From the NCBI GenBank assembly GCA_026988035.1, contig JALSLY010000066.1, positions 1-42,068 of the forward strand: a stretch of DNA of 42,068 nt, written 5' to 3'. Position numbers and translations under genes: made by a program. This document shows positions 285 through 35,165 of the stretch, piece after piece (within the stretch, counting starts at the first letter, position 1; every line of letters starts with the position of its first letter). The notes beneath the pieces were generated by a model. That model had not been told where the DNA came from, did no database searches, and saw only the letters and a list, made by a program, of their open reading frames with translations. Source of the stretch: Thermotogae bacterium. Its GTDB lineage: Bacteria; Thermotogota; Thermotogae; Mesoaciditogales; Mesoaciditogaceae.

Positions 285-392
285 CTTGACAAGCTAAACT
301 TAAAACCGTCCAAACTCTGGTATAGAGTACTGGACGGTTTTTTACAAATTGGTTCAAGATAAGGCAGGAAATAAGAATTTAGACGAAGGTGT
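285..392 (+). pseudogene. Relic fragment of the TPR-protein gene
   Basis: This stretch aligns with 9643-9750 inside the intact TPR gene. Both share the coding pattern LNLKPS-LW--V-DGF followed by a Gln-Asp-Lys-Ala-rich stretch. Only about 35 codons survive; the frame is broken and there is no start. Weaker similarity may reach back to about 210. It ends where a macrodomain relic of opposite strand begins (about 392-396). It contains an 11-bp perfect hairpin followed by T6 (302-343), the counterpart of the hairpin in the intact gene. A 77-codon open frame over 129-362 is only this relic read through repeat sequence. Confidence 0.75.
302..343 (+). terminator. Terminator-like hairpin in the TPR relic
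   Basis: The arms 302-312 (AAAACCGTCCA) and 331-341 (TGGACGGTTTT) pair perfectly over 11 bp around an 18-nt loop. A run of six T follows at 338-343. This is the form of an intrinsic terminator, although the loop is long. Relative to the intact TPR gene, an inner G-C pair has become A-T and an outer G-T wobble has become A-T, so pairing is kept although the coding sense is lost. Confidence 0.55.
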
Positions 393-395
393 AAA

Positions 396-520
396 AGCTA
401 ATGCTTCCTTAGTGAACGAGGTGAGAATTGGTAGAGTTGACAATAGCATTTGTATGTTCTTTCGTTATGTCACATTGTGCTATTTTCACTTTTGTGCCTA
501 AAAAATTGACAGTTTTTCAT
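396..520 (-). pseudogene. Relic 5' fragment of a macrodomain gene
   Basis: Read on the minus strand, this aligns with the start of the intact macrodomain gene at 4443-4570. Thirty bases are identical (456-485 against 4480-4509, inverted). The surviving protein sense is IAQCDITKE-T-AIVN--NSHL-H, then a stop at about 410. A 2-base deletion between the ATG (520) and this stretch puts the start out of frame. The ATG lies 17 bases after the pepC stop, so the gene once followed pepC. The rest of the macrodomain is missing and TPR-relic sequence abuts it. It is clearly non-functional. Confidence 0.85.
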
Positions 521-537
521 TCACTGATGATTGCCTC

Positions 538-1881
538 TTAGCGAACAAGTGCGACAGAACCCATTGGATCCCATGGTGGAAGCACGATCGGCTTCTTCTT
601 CAATGCTTCTTTCATCGGATCTGAAAGATATTTCTTGTCCACAACAACTTCGTAAACATACTCATCAAACCATTTATTGCCCATGACAAAATAACCTTTT
701 TCTCCACTATCTTCTCCCCAGCTATTTTCGACTTTCCATTTTAGAGGTTTTTCATCCATTAAATCAACTCCACTAAGTACCATGGCATGTGTCATAAGAC
801 TATCACCGTAATCCAATCTCTGAGCTTTGTTAAACACGAACCTTACGTCATACACACCCTCAAAGTTGTATAGATCGGTATCGAGTATTCCGCTTTCTCT
901 TTTCATCATCTTTCCAACATCAGAAGCAAACCAAACTGGCTGATCATCGATAATGGCTTTGATGGTGACATCTTTGAACTCCTGAAGGTCAACGTTCAAG
1001 TACAAAATATCTTTTCCACCTACCACATTACCGAGATACTGAACCGTGTAAGTTGTAAGAAAGTCCTTATCAGGAGTTGGACAATTTATAAGACTTACCA
1101 TGTTGTTCAAGTTTACTCCAGCGTACTCTTTGTAAAATTCTATGGGTGTTATATGCCTTATTCTGTGAAATTTTCCGTTTTTGTCTTTGTACTCGTAATC
1201 AAAATTTTCTGGGGGAATTCCCATGTTTATAGTAAGCATTCTGTAGATGTCCTCAATCATGGCATGTTTCAAGTTTCTCAGCGAATCTTCATTTTCCCCA
1301 TTCTCGTGCGCTTTTCTGAGGATCATGGCATCTTCTCTAAGTTTGGTTCTAAGCAAAGAGTTCATGATGTGAGAATTACTGGTATGAAAACTTTCTTTCA
1401 TCACATCTTTTGGAACTATTCCGTACTTTTCCACCAAATTTGTGAACATTCCCCATTGTCCGCCGTCCCCGACCAATTGCCAAAGTAGCCATGACACCAA
1501 ACGAGATTTGAGATCTTCGTTTGCGGTTTGTATGATGCTCTCAAGGAAGTAGTTTGCTTTTTCAAGTTTATCCCAAAACATTGTGTAACTTTGAGATAGT
1601 TCAATTTGTTCCACATTTAGTTCTTTAGCGACATAATATCTCATGAAATTAAGACCAGCGAATATCCAGCACCTTCCACTTTTCTTCTGATTGGTGATTT
1701 TCATGCTCTTTATTTCGTTTGAAAAAGTGTGATTGTATCTTGAAATAAATTCTCTGTTGACGGCAACATCCGTTAGAGAATTACTTGAAACGGCATTCAT
1801 AATGACCAAATTTTTGGACGAGGTTACAAACTTTTTCTTGAATTCTTCTATTTCTTCCCTTTTTAGATTCAAACCCCTCAC
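538..1881 (-). CDS. pepC: Aminopeptidase C / bleomycin hydrolase family cysteine peptidase
   Basis: A peptidase of family C1B, a cytoplasmic papain-like aminopeptidase that forms self-compartmentalising hexamers in characterised members. The 447 residues match the usual length. The catalytic triad is visible: Cys71 in KKSGRCWIFAG, His365 in SLMTHAMVLSG and Asn386 in VENSWGEDSG. The C-terminus has the family's PPWDPMG motif, which in bleomycin hydrolase projects into the active site, but here it runs about six residues beyond, which may require trimming. The GTG at 1881 overlaps the ribosome site; a TTG at 1872, five bases after AGAGGTGA, is an equally good start. It lies 55 bp downstream of the exporter gene on the same strand and is probably co-transcribed. 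Confidence 0.93.
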   Translation of the reverse strand: MRGLNLKREEIEEFKKKFVTSSKNLVIMNAVSSNSLTDVAVNREFISRYNHTFSNEIKSMKITNQKKSGRCWIFAGLNFMRYYVAKELNVEQIELSQSYTMFWDKLEKANYFLESIIQTANEDLKSRLVSWLLWQLVGDGGQWGMFTNLVEKYGIVPKDVMKESFHTSNSHIMNSLLRTKLREDAMILRKAHENGENEDSLRNLKHAMIEDIYRMLTINMGIPPENFDYEYKDKNGKFHRIRHITPIEFYKEYAGVNLNNMVSLINCPTPDKDFLTTYTVQYLGNVVGGKDILYLNVDLQEFKDVTIKAIIDDQPVWFASDVGKMMKRESGILDTDLYNFEGVYDVRFVFNKAQRLDYGDSLMTHAMVLSGVDLMDEKPLKWKVENSWGEDSGEKGYFVMGNKWFDEYVYEVVVDKKYLSDPMKEALKKKPIVLPPWDPMGSVALVR

Positions 1882-1935
1882 CTCTTCTTTTAAAATAAAA
1901 TTCTACTGACAAAATCATCATGTTTATTCGTTATT

Positions 1936-3603
1936 TTAGTTAGCTTTCGGTTTTTCACCTTGTGAATCTGTTTTCAACGATCCATCATATACACCATTTT
2001 GACGTGCAGAAATATTTTGAGTAACCGTAGGCTCTGACAATTTTTCGGAGACAATTTCGGCATTTTTATCTTCTATGGCTATTCTCTTGATGGCTATTGC
2101 TGCTATTATAGCGCCAAGTGATGCGATCATCGAAATTGTGAAAGCATGTGTTATTGATGTGGAAAGCCATTTTGCCATGTCAGCAAAAACACCTGCAAGT
2201 ATAGCATGAACACTTGGTGGACTTTTTTCAAGTATCTTAGACTTATTCATAAGGAACTGAGGAGATTTCATCATGGATAAGAATTCTTTTGGGAGTATGA
2301 AGTTCAAAATTTTCGGAAGACCATTGAGCTTCGATGCAAATGTGTTGTTGACGATAGTACCTAACACAGCTGTTCCAACGGTTCCACCAACACTTCGAAA
2401 GAATTGTACCGAAGAGAGAGCTAATCCTATGTAACGTTTACTTACAGCACTTTGCATAACCACCATGAGCATTCCCATGGGAAGCCCAACACCAAGCCCT
2501 GTTATGATCATTGCTAAGGAGACATCCCATCTCGATGAACTTACAACGAATTGAGACATTCTGAACAATCCATACGTTGTTGCTATCGTTCCTATTATGA
2601 AAGCCATTTTGTATTTTCCAGTTTTTGAAATGTAGAGTCCTCCGACTATACTCATCAGTACCGCTGCCAGCATCATAGGCATTAGAATCAGGCCAGAATT
2701 GGTGGCTGATTCTCCTTGAACTGCTTGAACGAAAAGAGGAAGATAGACTGCAGCTGCGAACAGTGAAAATCCTATGACAAAGTTCATAATATTTCCAACG
2801 GTAAAAACCTCATTCTTGAAAAGTGATAATTCCAATATTGGTTCTTTTGCCCGTCTTTCTGTGAAGAAGAAGAACACAAATGTTATCGCGGAAATTATAA
2901 AAAGCCCCCACACTTGTGATTCATTCCACGTGTGATCTTGTGATGCAAAAGACAGTCCAAGAAGAAGACTTAACAGCATCCCACCAAGAAGTGTGGCTCC
3001 AAGATAATCAACTTTTTCTCCAATTGCATTTTTGCCAAGTGTTTTTGGCAAAAAGAGGTATGCCATTATGAGTGCTGGGATACCTATGGGTATGTTGACA
3101 TAAAAGACCCAGTGCCAGCTTATTTTATCTGTTAAAAATCCACCTATGAACGGTCCTATAACGCTTGAAACGCCAAAAACTGCTCCGAGTAGCCCCTGAA
3201 ATTTTCCGCGTTCTCGCACTGTGAAAATGTCTCCAATTATCGCAGGACCTATTGCCATGGTCATAGCGGCTCCAATTCCCTGAATTGTTCGGGATCCGAT
3301 GAGCCAATATATGCTTTGAGATAGCCCCGCACTCCATGAAGCAGCCATGAAAATTGCCATGCCAGCCATGTAGAAATATTTTCTTCCAAACATATCGGAA
3401 AGTTTTCCAAATATTGGTACGAATATTGTAGAAGAGAGCATATAAGCTGTGAAGACCCATGCATAAAGGGACATCCCACCGAGATCATTTATTATCCTTG
3501 GCATAGCGGTACCAACAACAGTTTGATCCATCGATGACATAAAGACTGCCGCTAACACTGTTACAAGCGATCCTATGGCAATTTTTTTCTCAACATTTGG
3601 CAT
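1936..3603 (-). CDS. DHA2 (EmrB/QacA) family MFS drug exporter
   Basis: A 555-residue major facilitator protein of the 14-helix drug:H+ antiporter type in the inner membrane. The N-terminus has the DHA2 motif MDQTVVGTAMPRI (about 26-38), and loop 2-3 has motif A, GKLSDMFGRK. A proline- and glycine-rich helix 5 motif (VFGVSSVIGPFIGG) marks an antiporter. The hydrophilic tail after about residue 515 is unrelated to transport. The start overlaps the 3' end of the marR-type gene by 14 bp, so the pair is coupled and the repressor probably controls the pump. The substrate cannot be read from sequence. The DNA encoding its last transmembrane helix (2055-2170) has an inverted duplicate at 4277-4392. 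Confidence 0.93.
   Translation of the reverse strand: MPNVEKKIAIGSLVTVLAAVFMSSMDQTVVGTAMPRIINDLGGMSLYAWVFTAYMLSSTIFVPIFGKLSDMFGRKYFYMAGMAIFMAASWSAGLSQSIYWLIGSRTIQGIGAAMTMAIGPAIIGDIFTVRERGKFQGLLGAVFGVSSVIGPFIGGFLTDKISWHWVFYVNIPIGIPALIMAYLFLPKTLGKNAIGEKVDYLGATLLGGMLLSLLLGLSFASQDHTWNESQVWGLFIISAITFVFFFFTERRAKEPILELSLFKNEVFTVGNIMNFVIGFSLFAAAVYLPLFVQAVQGESATNSGLILMPMMLAAVLMSIVGGLYISKTGKYKMAFIIGTIATTYGLFRMSQFVVSSSRWDVSLAMIITGLGVGLPMGMLMVVMQSAVSKRYIGLALSSVQFFRSVGGTVGTAVLGTIVNNTFASKLNGLPKILNFILPKEFLSMMKSPQFLMNKSKILEKSPPSVHAILAGVFADMAKWLSTSITHAFTISMIASLGAIIAAIAIKRIAIEDKNAEIVSEKLSEPTVTQNISARQNGVYDGSLKTDSQGEKPKAN
2055..2170 (-). repeat. Left arm of inverted duplication (exporter 3' end)
   Basis: These 116 bases, inside the exporter gene and encoding its last helix and the first part of the tail (WLST...IAIEDKNAE), are repeated in inverted orientation at 4277-4392 with about 84% identity by hand count. 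Identical runs of 22 and 25 bases are present. The arms flank the rest of the exporter and the MarR gene. Confidence 0.85.
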
Positions 3604-4048
3604 TTTTGTTTGCCCCTTTCAGCTTTTCTGCAACATCTTCTATAACTTTAAAAGCGTCAAACAGTTTTTTCATTTCTTCATCAGATAAGATCTTTAACTT
3701 TTGATACATATACGATTCAGCTATTTTTGTGATTTCATCGATTCTTTTTTCTCCTTTTTTTGTTAGTTTTACCCTTACGACGCGACGATCTTTTTCTGAA
3801 CGTTTTCTTTCAATGTAACCGTTTCTCACAAGGAGATCAACGGATTCGCTCAAAGTGCTTTTTTTAAGACCCGAGTGTGATTCAAGTTCTGACATTTTCA
3901 AACTTTTACCTTTCGAACGATACCTAAGCCCAAATAAGATCATGAGAACAGCTTTGGAAAATCCAAATCGAGAATAATCAAAATCTTTGAAAAGCTGCTT
4001 CAAGAGCCTTGGATAAGATGTAAATAGTATTATTAGTTCATTTTCCAT
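3590..4048 (-). CDS. MarR family transcriptional regulator
   Basis: A 152-residue winged-helix repressor of the MarR family. The DNA-binding part is clear: the recognition-helix region KMSELESHSGLKKSTLSES (about 53-71) is followed by a wing with the family hallmark SEKDRRVVRVKLTKKG (about 90-105). Long helices at both ends would form the dimer interface. A strong AAGGAGG lies 8 bases before the ATG at 4048. It is first in the operon with the DHA2 exporter and overlaps it, the classic arrangement of a local repressor that senses pump substrates. No unmistakable operator was found, but the upstream region contains AGAAT/ATTCT half-sites around a TATAAT box. Confidence 0.92.
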   Translation of the reverse strand: MENELIILFTSYPRLLKQLFKDFDYSRFGFSKAVLMILFGLRYRSKGKSLKMSELESHSGLKKSTLSESVDLLVRNGYIERKRSEKDRRVVRVKLTKKGEKRIDEITKIAESYMYQKLKILSDEEMKKLFDAFKVIEDVAEKLKGANKNAKC

Positions 4049-4100
4049 AAGTTGAAACCTCCTTTTCCATAAACATATTTTATTCTATCCAGAATGATTC

Positions 4101-4128
4101 ATTATAGAACTATTCTTTTAAGAACCAT
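4101..4128 (-). promoter_or_regulatory. Candidate promoter of the marR-exporter operon
   Basis: On the minus strand a perfect TATAAT (4106-4101) lies about 50 bases before the MarR start codon. The -35 region (ATGGTT, 4128-4123, 16-base spacing) is weak. AGAAT and ATTCT half-sites bracket the -10 box and could be part of an autoregulatory operator. Only the -10 box is convincing. Confidence 0.4.
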
Positions 4129-4256
4129 TTAAAGCTCATTTACAGATTATCGATTATCGAGTTCTTATCTCAAATCTTTAAATGTGTCTCTTTCAATTTA
4201 TCACGGATAAATGTGCAAAGTAAGATGAAATATGTTCGTTATGCGAGTCATGTATG

Positions 4257-4392
4257 TAGTATGTTTTGTGTTTTTTATGGCTTTCCACATTTATGATTCG
4301 CGCCTTCGCGATTTCGGTGATCGCATCGATTGGCGCTATAATAGCAGCAATGACCATCAAGAGAATAGCCATAGAAGACAAAAATAACGAAA
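4257..4392 (+). pseudogene. Relic 3' end of a second DHA2 exporter gene
   Basis: Bases 4277-4392 are the right arm of the inverted duplication of 2055-2170. In translation they read WLSTFMIRAF, ISVIASIGAIIAAM and IKRIAIEDKN, the last helix of the exporter. Decayed similarity continues upstream to about 4257. The reading frame runs without a stop straight into the macrodomain gene, so an automatic caller may start that gene at 4266 and add a false membrane helix. No ribosome site precedes 4266. I read this as a rearrangement relic, not the native N-terminus of the macrodomain protein. Confidence 0.8.
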
Positions 4393-4442
4393 CCATCTTG
4401 GTAGAAGCAAAAGAGGTCAAAGCTGAGAGGAGTGATGATTTG

Positions 4443-4991
4443 GTGAAAAGAAGTGTTAATTTGGGAAAAGCACAGTTGGAAATAGCACAATGTGACATAA
4501 CGAAAGAACGTACGGATGCCATCGTCAACGCTGCCAATTCTCACCTTGCTCACGGTGGGGGTGTCGCTCTTGCAATATCAAAAGCTGGTGGGCATATCAT
4601 AAATAAAGAATCTCAAGAATACGTGAAAGAACATGGTCCAGTACCAACAGGAGGGGTAGCTGTAACGTCTGCGGGAAACTTGCAAGTACGGTACGTAATT
4701 CACACAGTGGGCCCAATATGGGGCGAAGGCGATGAAGACAAAAAGTTGCGCGACGCTTTTTATAATTCTCTTGTTAAAGCCGATGAGCTTGAATTAAGAA
4801 GCATATCATTTCCAGCTATCAGTTCCGGAATATATGGATTTCCAAAGGACAGATGTGCCGAAATTTTCTTTAAAACTGTAAAAGAATATCTTGAAGAAAA
4901 TGAATCTAAGTTAGAATTGATCAGAATGTGTCTGTACTCGAAAAGTGATTACGAGATATTCAAAAAAATTATGAAAGAAGTGTTTGAATGA
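4443..4991 (+). CDS. Macrodomain protein (probable ADP-ribose/O-acetyl-ADP-ribose hydrolase)
   Basis: A stand-alone macrodomain of 182 residues, of the Af1521/MacroD-like type, which binds ADP-ribose and often removes it from proteins or from O-acetyl-ADP-ribose. Visible ligand motifs are CDIT (17-20, adenine-binding Asp18), VNAAN (28-32), HGGGVA (37-42) and the phosphate loop ISSGIYGFP (126-134). I place the start at GTG 4443 (or TTG 4440) because GAGAGGAG at 4425-4432 gives proper spacing and the paralogous relic at 396-520 is homologous only from the equivalent codon. An ORF start at 4266 would fuse on an exporter relic. The stop overlaps the psuG start as ATGA, so the two are co-translated, which suggests a shared role in ribose-phosphate or nucleotide salvage. 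Confidence 0.88.
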   Translation: MKRSVNLGKAQLEIAQCDITKERTDAIVNAANSHLAHGGGVALAISKAGGHIINKESQEYVKEHGPVPTGGVAVTSAGNLQVRYVIHTVGPIWGEGDEDKKLRDAFYNSLVKADELELRSISFPAISSGIYGFPKDRCAEIFFKTVKEYLEENESKLELIRMCLYSKSDYEIFKKIMKEVFE

Positions 4992-5887
4992 TGGATTTTT
5001 TGGAACTATCTCCGGAAGTGAAAGATGCGTTGAAAAACTCACAGCCTGTAGTTGCACTTGAGTCAACGATAATATCTCATGGTATGCCTTACCCCAAAAA
5101 TTTCGAAACGGCGCTCACACTTGAAAAAGAGGTAAGAGCTCATGGCGCAATCCCTGCTACTATAGCCGTGATAGGAGGAAAAATAAAGATAGGTTTGAGT
5201 GAATCAGATATCGAATATCTGTCAAAAGCAAAAGGAATTTTAAAGCTCAGTAGAATGGATCTCCCATATGCCGTATCAAAAAAGTTAGACGGTGCTACAA
5301 CCGTAGCAGCGACCATGATGTGTGCTAACTTTGGAGGAGTAAAGGTTTTTGCAACTGGGGGAGTAGGAGGGGTGCACAAAGGGGTAAACGAAAGTTTTGA
5401 CATTTCAGCAGACCTCGTTGAGCTTTCTCAAACACCTATACTTGTTGTATCAGCCGGGGTAAAATCCATTCTTGACATTCCAAAAACACTTGAAGTTCTT
5501 GAAACCCTCGGCGTGACGGTTGTAGGATACAAAACACAGGATTTTCCTTCTTTTTACTCAAGAAAGAGCGGATCAAAACTTTATATGCACGTGGATGATC
5601 CATATGAGGCTGCGGCACTTTACAAAACAAAAAGAAAAATGGGAATTAAAGGTGGCGTTCTTGTCGCAAACCCCATATCGGAAGCCCACGAAATACCCAA
5701 TGGCGTTATTAACGAAGCGATTGAGCGAGCACTCAAAGAATCCAAAATCAAAAAAATAACAGGAAAAGAAACGACGCCATTTCTGCTCTCAAAAATCGTT
5801 GAGCTTTTGCCTCAAGCTTTAGAAGCGAACATTTATCTGGCCATGTCTAATGCTGCCCTTGCGGCAGAGATAGCAAAAAATCTTTGA
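4988..5887 (+). CDS. psuG: Pseudouridine-5'-phosphate glycosidase
   Basis: PsuG reversibly cleaves the C-C glycosidic bond of pseudouridine 5'-phosphate to give uracil and ribose 5-phosphate. The 299 residues fit the family. The expected active-site residues are present: Glu25 in VALESTIISHG, Lys86 in LKLSRMDLP and Lys159 in VSAGVKSILD, matching E. coli Glu31, Lys93 and Lys166 by motif. Two glycine-rich loops (ATGGVGGVH) bind phosphate. It starts within the macrodomain stop (ATGA overlap). No PfkB-type pseudouridine kinase is adjacent, so the kinase must be elsewhere or the substrate arrives phosphorylated. It converges on the methyltransferase gene 16 bp away; I see no good terminator between them. 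Confidence 0.95.
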   Translation: MMDFLELSPEVKDALKNSQPVVALESTIISHGMPYPKNFETALTLEKEVRAHGAIPATIAVIGGKIKIGLSESDIEYLSKAKGILKLSRMDLPYAVSKKLDGATTVAATMMCANFGGVKVFATGGVGGVHKGVNESFDISADLVELSQTPILVVSAGVKSILDIPKTLEVLETLGVTVVGYKTQDFPSFYSRKSGSKLYMHVDDPYEAAALYKTKRKMGIKGGVLVANPISEAHEIPNGVINEAIERALKESKIKKITGKETTPFLLSKIVELLPQALEANIYLAMSNAALAAEIAKNL

Positions 5888-5903: not shown

Positions 5904-6635
5904 TCAAGAAAAAACAGCTTTAAAGAATCCGGCAGTTTTTCCGTGAACTTCGCAATATATATCCATGCGCTTCACTTTCACTTCTTCAAATATATTTGAA
6001 GCCAATTCTCTCATCTCATCCAATGTAAAACCAAGATAGGTATCTTTCAACGTTTCTCTGAATTCTCTGTGCTCATGCTTGAGAACATCAATGATTACCG
6101 TCTTTCCGCCTTCTTTTACAACGTTTCTCATACTCTTTAAAACATTCTCGGGATTCAGGGAATGATGAAAAGCCAAAGTCGAAATCACGCCGTCAAACAT
6201 TTCTGGAAAATCAGAATTAGAACACTTATTTGCAATTTCAATTGATTCTTTGATTTTCTCGGCAATTCCCCAAATTGGCGTGATTTTCTTCTCTTCAAGC
6301 CTTTCAAGCATACTTGGAGTTATGTCAAAGCCATAAATTTTTGCTTGAACTCCTTCTTCTCCAAGTCTTTCTTTGATCTTTGATGTAAAGAATCCGGAAC
6401 CAGCGGCTACATCAAGCATCGTAACATTTTTCTTGTTTAGCGTCAAAATGTCCCCAACAATTTCTTCTACTATCTTATCAATACAATCATTCTTGAGATA
6501 TTCTTTTACTATCTCATCCCTGTTTTGAGCTTCTTCTTCAAAGTGTTTTATTTGTTCTATAAATTCATTCGTAGTTTTCTCTTTGAAACCAAGTTCTCCC
6601 AAAAAGCCTCTAATTTCTTCAATAGTAGGTATCAT
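5904..6635 (-). CDS. Class I SAM-dependent methyltransferase
   Basis: A 243-residue methyltransferase with a helical N-terminal cap and a Rossmann core. Motif I is LDVAAGSGFFTSKI (about 74-87); post-I acidic residues follow in KIYGFDITPSML, and GVISTLAFHHS is motif IV-like. It is the last gene of the transsulfuration operon and overlaps the gamma-lyase stop as ATGA. In Bacillus subtilis the methyltransferase gene yrrT sits beside mccA and mccB in the same way, so a role in homocysteine/SAM recycling is a fair inference. The methyl acceptor cannot be told from sequence. Confidence 0.85.
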   Translation of the reverse strand: MIPTIEEIRGFLGELGFKEKTTNEFIEQIKHFEEEAQNRDEIVKEYLKNDCIDKIVEEIVGDILTLNKKNVTMLDVAAGSGFFTSKIKERLGEEGVQAKIYGFDITPSMLERLEEKKITPIWGIAEKIKESIEIANKCSNSDFPEMFDGVISTLAFHHSLNPENVLKSMRNVVKEGGKTVIIDVLKHEHREFRETLKDTYLGFTLDEMRELASNIFEEVKVKRMDIYCEVHGKTAGFFKAVFS

Positions 6636-7798
6636 ACATCTATCCTCCTGAACCCTTTCTTCAAATCTTCAATCAAATCATCGGCATTTTCTATCCCTAC
6701 AGAAATTCTTATAAGATTGTCAGTAACTCCTATTTTTTCTCTTTCTTCTTTTGGTACCGAAGCATGAGTCATAGAAGCGGGATGCTCAATAAGAGATTCA
6801 ACTCCACCCAAGCTTTCAGCTAATGAAAAAATCTCAAGATTCTCCAAAAAGGTTTTCGCTTCCTGAAAGCTGCCTTTAATTTCAAAAGAGAGCATTCCAC
6901 CAAATCCTGACATTTGTCTTTTTGCCAACTCGTACTGAGGATGACTTTTTAACCCGGGATAGAAAACTTTCTTTACCTTAGGGGAAGTTTCTAAATATTC
7001 TGCGATTTTCATAGCGTTCTTTTCATGCTCTTTCATCCTCAACGCCAAAGTTTTGATTCCTCTCAGTACCAGAAAACTGCTGAAGGGAGAAAGAATGGCC
7101 CCAGTGGTATTCTGATTGAATTTCAGTTTGTTGTAGATTTCTTCATCTGAGAGCATTATAGCTCCGCCTATTGAGTCACTGTGTCCATTTAAATATTTTG
7201 TGGTGCTGTGAACCACTATATCTGCGCCTAAGGACAATGGCTGTTGAAAAAATGGGCTCATAAAGGTATTGTCAACAACCACTAAAACGCCTCGCTCTTT
7301 TGCAATTTTAGAGATCGCCTTAATATCACAGAGTTTCATCAATGGGTTTGTTGGGCTTTCCAACCAAATTAACTTCGTGTTTGGTTTTATAGCGTTCTTT
7401 ACATTTTCTACATTTACCGCGTCAACATAGCTAAATTCAATTTGAAAATTCTGCTCGAAAACCTTACTAAATAGCCTTCTCGTACCACCATATAGATTGT
7501 CAAAAGCAACAACGTGATCTCCGGATCCAAGCAAAGTTAATCCTATAATTGTTTCAGCAGCCATGCCAGAAGCAAAAGCAAGGGCAAATTTGGCATTTTC
7601 TAAAGAAGCTAATTTTTTCTCTAAAGCATCCCGGGTTGGATTTCCCGTTCTGGAGTATTCGTAGCCCCCTGTTGGTTTATCTATTTCTTTTCTCGCAAAT
7701 GTAGAGGAGAGATGAATGGGTATTACGACATCGCCAGCCCCTCCTTTTTCAAGGTTGGGGAACTCTCCTACGTGAATCGCTTTTGTTTCAAACTTCAT
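6632..7798 (-). CDS. Cystathionine gamma-lyase / gamma-synthase family PLP enzyme
   Basis: A Cys/Met-metabolism PLP enzyme of 388 residues, full length. The cofactor lysine is Lys201 in VVHSTTKYLNGHSD; SSTFARK, YSRTGNPTR and ESPTNPLMKL are other family motifs. The C-terminal SLGGVESLIEHPASMTHAS is typical of MccB/gamma-lyase-like members. With the upstream cystathionine beta-synthase-like enzyme it most likely cleaves cystathionine to cysteine, 2-oxobutyrate and ammonia (reverse transsulfuration). Gamma-synthase activity cannot be excluded because the families are hard to separate by sequence. It overlaps the upstream gene by 11 bp and the methyltransferase by 4 bp. Confidence 0.92.
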   Translation of the reverse strand: MKFETKAIHVGEFPNLEKGGAGDVVIPIHLSSTFARKEIDKPTGGYEYSRTGNPTRDALEKKLASLENAKFALAFASGMAAETIIGLTLLGSGDHVVAFDNLYGGTRRLFSKVFEQNFQIEFSYVDAVNVENVKNAIKPNTKLIWLESPTNPLMKLCDIKAISKIAKERGVLVVVDNTFMSPFFQQPLSLGADIVVHSTTKYLNGHSDSIGGAIMLSDEEIYNKLKFNQNTTGAILSPFSSFLVLRGIKTLALRMKEHEKNAMKIAEYLETSPKVKKVFYPGLKSHPQYELAKRQMSGFGGMLSFEIKGSFQEAKTFLENLEIFSLAESLGGVESLIEHPASMTHASVPKEEREKIGVTDNLIRISVGIENADDLIEDLKKGFRRIDV

Positions 7799-8795
7799 AC
7801 TCTTCTTCCTCCTCTAAAAATTTGTGGGTACTCATCCACTCGTCGTTGTAGCACTTACTCAGATACCTATTTCCAGAATCAGGGAATATAACCACTATAT
7901 TCTTATTGTCCTCTATTTTCTCAGCAACCTTAAGAGCAGCCCATGCTGCGCTTCCACTTGAACCTCCGGCAAAAATGCCTTCTTCTCTTGCCAGTCTTCT
8001 TGTAGTTAAAAAGGAGTCTTTGTCTGTAACTTGAATAATATCGTCTATCACATTAAAATCTATCGCCTCGACAACGTAATCCTCCCCAATGCCTTCTACC
8101 TTGTAAACATGAGGAGTGACTAATTTTCCACTTTTAAAGTAATCATAGAAGACAGAACCTACCGGATCAACCGCGATCACTTTCATTTCAGGTTTTTTCT
8201 CTTTGAGGTATCTACCTGCACCACTCAACGTGCCTCCCGTTCCAATGCCAGCCACGAGAATATCTATTTCTCCTTTCGTCTGTCGCCAAATTTCTGGTCC
8301 TGTTGTGTGATAGTGAGCTTCAATATTTTTAGGATTATCATATTGATTCACATAAAATGAATTTGGAGTTTCCTTTGCTATTCTTTTAGCAACGCTGTAA
8401 TAGCTTTCTGGAGAATCTGCTGGTACATCTGTGGGAGTTATAATAACTTCAACACCGAAAGCTTTCATCAGATTCTTTTTCTCGTCACTCATCTTGTCTG
8501 GCATTGTAATAATGCACTTGTACCCTTTAACTGCTGCAATCATCGCAAGTGCAGTACCAGTATTTCCGGAGGAACCCTCCACAATAGTTCCTCCTGGTTT
8601 TAGGAGTCCCTTTCTTTCCGCATCTTCAATTATATACAGAGCCATGCGGTCTTTGATACTTCCACTCGGGTTAAAAAATTCCAATTTTGCCCAAACAGTG
8701 GGCTTAACATGTTTGGTGATCTTATTCAACTTTACCAAAGGGGTATTACCAATTGCCTCGAGTATGCCGTTGTAGTTTCTTGCGTTTTCATTCAT
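7788..8795 (-). CDS. Cystathionine beta-synthase-like / cysteine synthase family PLP enzyme
   Basis: A fold-type II PLP enzyme of 335 residues. The PLP lysine is Lys48 in NPSGSIKDR, the phosphate-stabilising loop is EGSSGNTG (73-80), and IGTGGTLSG is the second glycine loop. The C-terminal part (EGIGEDYV, AREEGIFAGGSSGS, FPDSGNRYLSK, NDEWM) resembles the catalytic core of cystathionine beta-synthase or MccA more than CysK, but the regulatory CBS domains are absent. It would condense serine or O-acetylserine with homocysteine. It is the first gene of the operon; AAGGAGA lies ahead of the ATG, and a palindrome at 8819-8833 may be the operator. Cysteine synthase activity is the main alternative. 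Confidence 0.9.
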   Translation of the reverse strand: MNENARNYNGILEAIGNTPLVKLNKITKHVKPTVWAKLEFFNPSGSIKDRMALYIIEDAERKGLLKPGGTIVEGSSGNTGTALAMIAAVKGYKCIITMPDKMSDEKKNLMKAFGVEVIITPTDVPADSPESYYSVAKRIAKETPNSFYVNQYDNPKNIEAHYHTTGPEIWRQTKGEIDILVAGIGTGGTLSGAGRYLKEKKPEMKVIAVDPVGSVFYDYFKSGKLVTPHVYKVEGIGEDYVVEAIDFNVIDDIIQVTDKDSFLTTRRLAREEGIFAGGSSGSAAWAALKVAEKIEDNKNIVVIFPDSGNRYLSKCYNDEWMSTHKFLEEEEEYEV

Positions 8796-8964: not shown

Positions 8965-9118
8965 CATTGCGGGCTTGACCCGGAATCTGAGGATGAGATC
9001 CCGGAGCAAGTCCGGGATGACATGTCGGTTTAAGACTCTACCAGATGAACCAAGTTCAGGATGACCTATGGTCAGTCCGGAACGACCTACGGTCGGTTCA
9101 GGATAACCTGTGTTCAGC
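8965..9118 (+). repeat. Dispersed palindromic repeat, copy B
   Basis: This copy contains the same core as copy A: CCGGAATCTGAGGATGAG, the ATCCCGG...CCGGGAT palindrome, then ACATGTCGGTTTAAGACTC and several TTCAGGATGACC-like units. The first part (GCGGGCTTGACCCG) matches copy D rather than copy A. The right half with the ATCGCTT hairpin and TTGACR end is missing. It occupies part of the 8796-9392 spacer. The rest of that spacer (9119-9310) is AT-rich with no recognisable gene. Confidence 0.85.
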
Positions 9119-9392: not shown

Positions 9393-10466
9393 ATGGAGAA
9401 ACCCATCGTTCTGACACTGAAAGATAAGAGTTATCGAATAGATGAGTACGATCCTATTTTCTTTTTAGTTCGGGACCTTCTTTATGATGGAGCATGGGAG
9501 GTTTTTGCAGCAGACATGCATACACATCCCGATTATCTTGAAAGAATCCATAAATTGAAAGATTTGGAAAGCGAGGTTGGTCAGATCTCAGGTTCTCTTC
9601 TCTTGCCCATCTCAGTTGAAGAAATATTGGAGTACTTTGAAGAGTTAAACTTAAAGCCGTCCGAGCTCTGGCATGGAGTACCGGACGGTTTTTATGAATT
9701 AGCTCAAGATAAAGCAGAAAATGAAAGCTTAGACGAAGCTATAAAATTGGTAGATGTTGTTATTGAAACGTGGCCTGAGTACGCAAAAGCTTACGAACTT
9801 AAAGGTTCATTTTTGACTGAAATGGGTAAATTGGAGGAAGGAATTGAATTTCTGAAACGTGCTATAAAGATGAATCCAACTCTTGTCGAGGCTTATGCCG
9901 AGCTTGGTCAAGCTTTCTACAACCTTGAGGATTATGAAGAAGCCATAAAGTATTGGGAAAAGGAGCTTGAATACACGCCACATGATAAATTCGCTTATTT
10001 CATGATAGCTGACGCTTACAGAAAGATGGGCAAAGTGGGAAGTGCTTTAGAAACACTCAAAAGATTCGCCGCCGAGGATAAGAAGAATATTCTTGTGCGT
10101 TACGAACTTATGCAACTTTACGAACAGCTTGGTGATTATGACAGTGCGAAAGAGTACGAAAATCAGATATTAGACATGACTCCTTATTATCCGGGTGATA
10201 TAGAACCATGGGCTAAGGTATTTTTCAAAAACGGGAGATACGAAGATGTGATGAATGTTGTAGAAGAGCATATTCAGAAATACCCAATAGATGGTCATTT
10301 CAGGTTATTACTTGTTGTTCCTTATGCAAAACTTGGGAATTATGATAAGGCAAGAAAGATTCTCGAAGAATTCAAGAATCAAAAAGATTGGTATTTTTAT
10401 GGCAAAAAAGAGCTCTTTGAGAGCAATCTAAGTAAGAGAGAATTAGCTTTGTGTGGGATAGAATAA
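9393..10466 (+). CDS. TPR-repeat protein
   Basis: A 357-residue soluble protein. Residues 1-105 form an N-terminal region that I do not recognise. From about 110 on there are tandem tetratricopeptide repeats, for example YAKAYELKGSFLTEMGKLEE and VEAYAELGQAFYNLEDYEEA, with the usual W/L/G/Y/A pattern; at least six units continue to the end. TPR arrays are protein-binding scaffolds. It shares its promoter with, and overlaps by 16 bp, a prepilin peptidase gene, so a link to type IV pilus or secretion assembly is possible but unproven. AAGGAGG (9374-9380) precedes a two-codon ATG-CTT-TAG mini-frame directly abutting the ATG at 9393. Codons 87-101 contain a terminator-like hairpin. A relic copy lies at 285-392. 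Confidence 0.88.
   Translation: MEKPIVLTLKDKSYRIDEYDPIFFLVRDLLYDGAWEVFAADMHTHPDYLERIHKLKDLESEVGQISGSLLLPISVEEILEYFEELNLKPSELWHGVPDGFYELAQDKAENESLDEAIKLVDVVIETWPEYAKAYELKGSFLTEMGKLEEGIEFLKRAIKMNPTLVEAYAELGQAFYNLEDYEEAIKYWEKELEYTPHDKFAYFMIADAYRKMGKVGSALETLKRFAAEDKKNILVRYELMQLYEQLGDYDSAKEYENQILDMTPYYPGDIEPWAKVFFKNGRYEDVMNVVEEHIQKYPIDGHFRLLLVVPYAKLGNYDKARKILEEFKNQKDWYFYGKKELFESNLSKRELALCGIE
9653..9693 (+). terminator. Terminator-like hairpin inside the TPR gene
   Basis: Arms 9653-9663 and 9682-9692 form 11 pairs (one G-T) around an 18-base loop, followed by TTTTT. It lies in codons 87-101 of an otherwise open gene. The stem is preserved by paired changes in the relic at 302-341. If it functions, it would attenuate transcription about 300 bases into the operon unless ribosomes are close behind RNA polymerase. 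Confidence 0.45.
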
Positions 10467-17964: not shown

Positions 17965-18093
17965 TTGACCCTACCCTATGGTAGGTTCAGGATGACGCTT
18001 GATGAGACTTCGAAAAAATTCCTTTATCGCTTTTCAAGCGATGTTTATTCGATAAATATTCATAGATTGTAAAGTTGACGCACAACTTGAGTT
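17965..18093 (+). repeat. Dispersed palindromic repeat, copy C (right half)
   Basis: This part-copy shares with copy A the run GGTTCAGGATGACGCTTGAT, then GACTTC...AAAATTCC, the hairpin ATCGCTT-TTC-AAGCGAT (loop inverted relative to copy A) and the terminal AAGTTGACGCACAACTTGAG. The left half is missing. Its TTGACG end points at the DUF2520-panB operon. Confidence 0.85.
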
Positions 18094-34856: not shown

Positions 34857-34910
34857 ATGAATTTTCTAAAGGTTAACAATCTACATTCATATTTAGTATT
34901 CGCGTGTGCG

Positions 34911-35165
34911 TCAACTTTACAACCTGTAAGTATTTATCAAATGAGCTTCGCTTTTCAAGCGATAAAGGAATTTTTTTGAAGTCTTATCACAGTATCTGAT
35001 TCTTTAACGTCATCCTGAACTTGATTCATCTGGTAGAGTCTTAAACCGACATGTCATCCTGAACCGACCTTAGGTCGTCCCGGACTGACCATAGGTCATC
35101 CTGAACTTGATTCAGGATCTTGGGATCTCATCCTTAGATTGCGGGTCAAGCCCGCAATGAGTGTG
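34911..35165 (-). repeat. Dispersed palindromic repeat, copy D
   Basis: This is the longest copy, on the minus strand. Read in that direction: GCGGGCTTGACCCGCAATC, AAGGATGAGATCC, GATCCTGAATCAAGTTCAGGATGAC, two GGTCRGTYC units, ACATGTCGGTTTAAGACTC, the ATCGCTT-GAA-AAGCGA hairpin and the end AAAGTTGACGCACA. The core matches copies A and B. Its TTGACG end points toward the ABC operon, upstream of that operon's own promoter. The remainder of the 34703-35676 spacer (35166-35676) shows no gene that I can support. Confidence 0.85.

Follow-up and report, generated by a model that had tools for sequence, protein, structure and literature searches.

Gene content and organization of the locus

The window, a stretch of 42,068 nucleotides from a Thermotogae bacterium (contig JALSLY010000066.1), carries near its left end a marR–exporter–peptidase unit on the minus strand and, directly adjoining it on the plus strand, an exporter remnant followed by a macrodomain gene and a psuG-like gene. 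The closest genomes are metagenome bins of the Mesoaciditogaceae (Thermotogae), of which only two, G001 (locus L024) and G002 (locus L023), belong to the same genus. The features of the locus are listed below, with the supporting evidence in brackets.

286–396, plus strand: decayed fragment of a TPR-protein gene, matching 9637–9746 at 80% (intact copy at 9393–10466)
412–488, minus strand: macrodomain 5′-end stump, outer arm of the nested inverted repeats (repeat search, alignment, in-frame TAA)
538–1881, minus strand: C1-type peptidase (Peptidase_C1_2), marker gene of the G002-type operon form (family match, gene order in relatives)
1936–3603, minus strand: complete DHA2-type MFS exporter with a long G002-type C-terminal tail (alignment)
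2055–2170, minus strand: left inner arm, within the intact exporter (blastn, sequence comparison)
3590–4048, minus strand: MarR-family regulator (family match, gene order in relatives)
4049–4152, minus strand: marR upstream region, conserved in three relatives, with block AGTTCTTAAAAGAATAGTTCTATAATG; end of the inverted unit (alignment)
4158–4276, plus strand: heavily eroded continuation of the original exporter to the left (weak match, highest at the colinear site)
4277–4392, plus strand: right inner arm, stump of the last helix of the original exporter with a short G001/G005-type C-terminus (alignment)
4426–4435 (approximate), plus strand: Shine-Dalgarno-like GAGGAG; an identical motif precedes the G001 macrodomain at the aligned position (sequence, alignment)
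4442–4991, plus strand: intact macrodomain protein (Pfam Macro; MacroD/YmdB-like) (Pfam match)
4988–5887, plus strand: psuG-like gene (Indigoidine_A family; pseudouridine-5′-phosphate glycosidase by family) (family match)

The seam between the two units lies at 4152–4158, where the homology of the marR upstream region stops at about 4152 and the exporter stump fades at about 4158. Along the exporter gene, 4153–4276 matches best at the colinear position, in G001 as in the left copy, with a score only slightly above that of the best shuffles against G001 and reached by 12 of 500 shuffles against the left copy. On the minus-strand side of the seam, the block AGTTCTTAAAAGAATAGTTCTATAATG (4099–4130), which is conserved in relatives, contains TTCTT-AA-AAGAA together with TATAAT and likely represents a MarR operator and promoter. 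On the plus-strand side, the GAGGAG motif would imply that the macrodomain starts at TTG 4439 or GTG 4442.

Left edge and right flank

The left edge of the window consists of debris and reads, in order, dispersed repeat (60–220), TPR fragment and macrodomain stump. Further copies of the dispersed repeat family occur at 8965–9107, 17975–18093 and 34905–35160, and a search with 60–411 returned 48 matches in the genome, most of them within the window. The start of the contig inside this repeat probably explains why the assembly breaks there. Positions 128–170, which match the marR upstream region of G001, were considered as a native left flank and dropped, as 60–220 is a dispersed repeat with dozens of copies. 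The TPR fragment has the same orientation as the intact gene, directly adjoins the macrodomain stump and is matched orthologously by the TPR genes of G002, G005, G007 and G004. The stump of this second macrodomain gene spans 412–517 on the minus strand.

To the right of psuG, positions 5904–8795 hold a methyltransferase, a Cys/Met PLP enzyme and a PALP (cysteine-synthase-like) gene. This cluster gave no DNA match in G001, G002, G005 or G007 except for one weak 47-base hit, a search of the nearer family genomes gave no close protein match for its Cys/Met enzyme, and the cluster was possibly acquired. The region has undergone more than one rearrangement.

Two nested pairs of inverted repeats

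The initial annotation had described an inverted repeat between 2055–2170 and 4277–4392, about 84% identical with exact runs of 22 and 25 bases, and its coordinates proved exact: the minus-strand and plus-strand arms align by blastn over 116 nt at 84.5% identity (E = 1e-32), with longest exact runs of 25 and 22 bases. A genome-wide search of the 2.04 Mb assembly found two copies of this sequence, both at the present locus. The two arms begin at an identical codon phase of the exporter frame, and the right arm shares the frame of the macrodomain ORF (4266–4991), in agreement with the earlier statements that this arm is in frame with the macrodomain gene and that a crossover between the arms would yield an in-frame exporter–macrodomain fusion. 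Differences between the arms number 5, 4 and 9 at codon positions 1, 2 and 3, respectively, so that half of them fall at positions 1 and 2, the pattern expected once the right arm is free of constraint.

A second, outer pair, absent from that description, is formed by 412–488 (minus) and 4477–4553 (plus), which align over 77 nt at 87% identity (E = 2e-22) with a longest exact run of 30 bp. Its left arm is the decayed 5′ end of a macrodomain gene and runs into an in-frame TAA. The opposite copies follow a matching order, with both the exporter tail and the macrodomain 5′ end duplicated, and their decay is complementary: the macrodomain is dead on the left and the exporter is dead on the right.

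Comparison with the operon of relatives

Gene order was compared with two same-genus genomes, all relatives in the comparison being metagenome bins. Both same-genus genomes carry the genes on a single strand: G001 reads marR–exporter–macrodomain–psuG, and its exporter ORF overlaps the macrodomain ORF in another frame; G002 reads marR–exporter–C1 peptidase–macrodomain–psuG. The other family members searched carry the exporter and the macrodomain at separate places. The window holds the same genes as the genus operon, at about 76–88% protein identity for marR, exporter, macrodomain and psuG, but its marR–exporter–peptidase part runs opposite in direction to macrodomain–psuG. Neither L023 nor L024, each a single codirectional unit, contains the inverted repeats; the exporter–macrodomain fusion envisaged earlier is absent from both G001 and G002, and their macrodomains carry no N-terminal anchor.

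The inverted unit follows the G002 form. Positions 417–4132 are colinear end to end, in inverted orientation, with G002 L023 9202–5471, covering the macrodomain 5′ end, the peptidase, the exporter and marR. The C-terminal tail of the left exporter and the spacer between peptidase and macrodomain resemble G002, and the macrodomain stump occupies the distal end of the unit, the very position expected from the gene order of G002. The identity of the inverted unit to G002 does not exceed the genome background: marR–exporter shows 83.0% to G001 and 79.4% to G002, and psuG shows 83.7 and 79.6%. A recent import of the left unit from G001 or G002 is not indicated, as its divergence equals that of psuG and the genome background.

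The forward unit follows the G001 form. Positions 4278–5880 are colinear end to end, in forward orientation, with G001 L024 6846–8443, through the exporter tail, the macrodomain and psuG and without the peptidase. The right stump ends in the short C-terminus ILVEAKEV, like ALMEIKED in G001 and VLIEAKEI in the outgroup G005, and the junction between stump and macrodomain aligns with G001 throughout, including the GAGGAG ribosome-binding-like site.

Origin of the divergent arrangement

The arrangement is most probably the outcome of two forms of one operon that came head to head and then decayed reciprocally, a single-event history that we infer from the junction types, order, orientation and decay seen at the locus. 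The original forward unit would have been a G001-like marR–exporter–macrodomain–psuG operon, and a second, G002-like unit (marR–exporter–C1 peptidase–macrodomain) would have been placed backwards directly upstream of it, either by inverted duplication or by import. The backward unit would have kept marR, exporter and peptidase, with its macrodomain reduced to about 77 bp, and the forward unit would have kept macrodomain and psuG, with marR lost and the exporter reduced to about 240–270 bp. The inverted repeats would then be the overlaps surviving from both units.

The evidence on the route by which the second unit arrived points both ways. The right exporter tail shares 84.5% identity with the left arm and 75.9% with G001, which favors duplication inside the lineage, whereas the differing junctions, with and without the peptidase, favor two pre-existing operon forms. 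In a site-by-site comparison of the stumps, which are short (116 and 77 bp) and give no firm tree, informative sites are few and conflicting. An inverted, head-to-head duplication with reciprocal loss likewise leaves copies on opposite strands, each keeping what the other loses, with fossil repeats at the overlaps. Unlike such a duplication, the copies in the window carry different junctions, which requires either import or a duplication that predates the peptidase insertion.

The initial annotation had left the choice between the fossil of one inversion and a phase-variable switch; the fossil stands in spirit, though not as one simple inversion, and the switch is poorly supported, its arms being diverged and both same-genus relatives being free of the repeats. 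It is very unlikely that one simple inversion of marR–exporter broke the exporter near its 3′ end: it would account for the orientation of marR–exporter opposite to macrodomain–psuG, but it would not duplicate sequence, yet a separate exporter stump stands on the right, and the inverted exporter is complete to its 3′ end and continues into the peptidase gene and the macrodomain stump. A staggered-break inversion with duplication is itself a form of the head-to-head explanation. No more credit is due to a switch in which recombination at the inner or outer arms inverts the unit, so that a fusion or a G002-like codirectional operon alternates with the present order. The nested pairs are in frame, an inner-arm crossover would fuse exporter and macrodomain in frame, and an outer-arm crossover would restore the G002 order of marR–exporter–peptidase–macrodomain–psuG. 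However, the arms have diverged to 84.5% and 87% identity with longest exact runs of 25 and 30 bp, codon positions 1 and 2 account for half of the inner-arm differences, the outer arm runs out in a decayed stump, the macrodomain has its own conserved ribosome-binding site, and repeats and fusion are missing from G001 and G002. No serine or tyrosine recombinase match (PF00239, PF00589) is present near the repeats or elsewhere on the contig; the genome's matches lie on other contigs, from where an invertase could possibly act. Published invertons are bounded by inverted repeats of 10–40 nt and are flipped by invertases whose genes often lie close by (PMC11892184). Like invertons of the PhaseFinder type (PMC11892184), the window has coding DNA between inverted repeats and a possible in-frame alternative product; unlike them, its arms are 116 nt long, diverged gene stumps on a contig with no invertase match. 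An inverton would call for near-identical repeats that serve as recombination sites; the present arms, at 84.5% and 87%, are decayed, and conservation of the arrangement in relatives, a supporting feature that is not strictly required, is not seen in L023 or L024. The literature found covers inverton background and contains nothing on this locus. Occasional recombination of the nested repeats, by which the outer macrodomain arms would flip the unit between the divergent order and a G002-like codirectional operon, is very improbable; if true, such flipping would change macrodomain–psuG read-through from the MarR-controlled exporter operon.

A metagenome assembly chimera, joining the loci of two strains at about 4152–4158, is unlikely. 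The relatives are metagenome bins, the present assembly is split into 86 contigs, the first bases of this contig belong to a repeat dispersed in dozens of copies, and two operon forms stand on one contig; nevertheless, the stumps are decayed (stop codon, indels, 13–16% divergence), which the joining of healthy loci would not create, and the reported contamination of the assembly is 0. Capture of the exporter's last helix as an N-terminal membrane anchor of the macrodomain, in ORF 4266–4991 or from ATG 4293, is highly improbable as well. The ORF is open and in frame, and its hydrophobic stretch gives way to charged residues, which is compatible with capture, but no ribosome-binding site is seen before the possible anchor starts, the GAGGAG near 4430, which is shared with G001, suits a start at 4439/4442, and the macrodomains of G001 and G002 do without an anchor. 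The head-to-head meeting of two operon forms remains the preferred explanation, in which the relatives mark the inverted repeats as old rearrangement debris rather than a switch.

Biological implications

Inverted gene ends in a shared frame can look convincingly like a switch in raw sequence and yet be debris of decay; inspecting the next outer repeat and how relatives order these genes tells the two apart. The biological weight of the finding is modest. It offers a clear case of operon rewiring that can be read against two relatives, in which each of two forms meeting head to head loses a part. Macrodomain and psuG would now diverge from the MarR promoter region rather than follow the exporter, and this new divergent arrangement, in which the second half of the operon has been left, may be a lasting effect.
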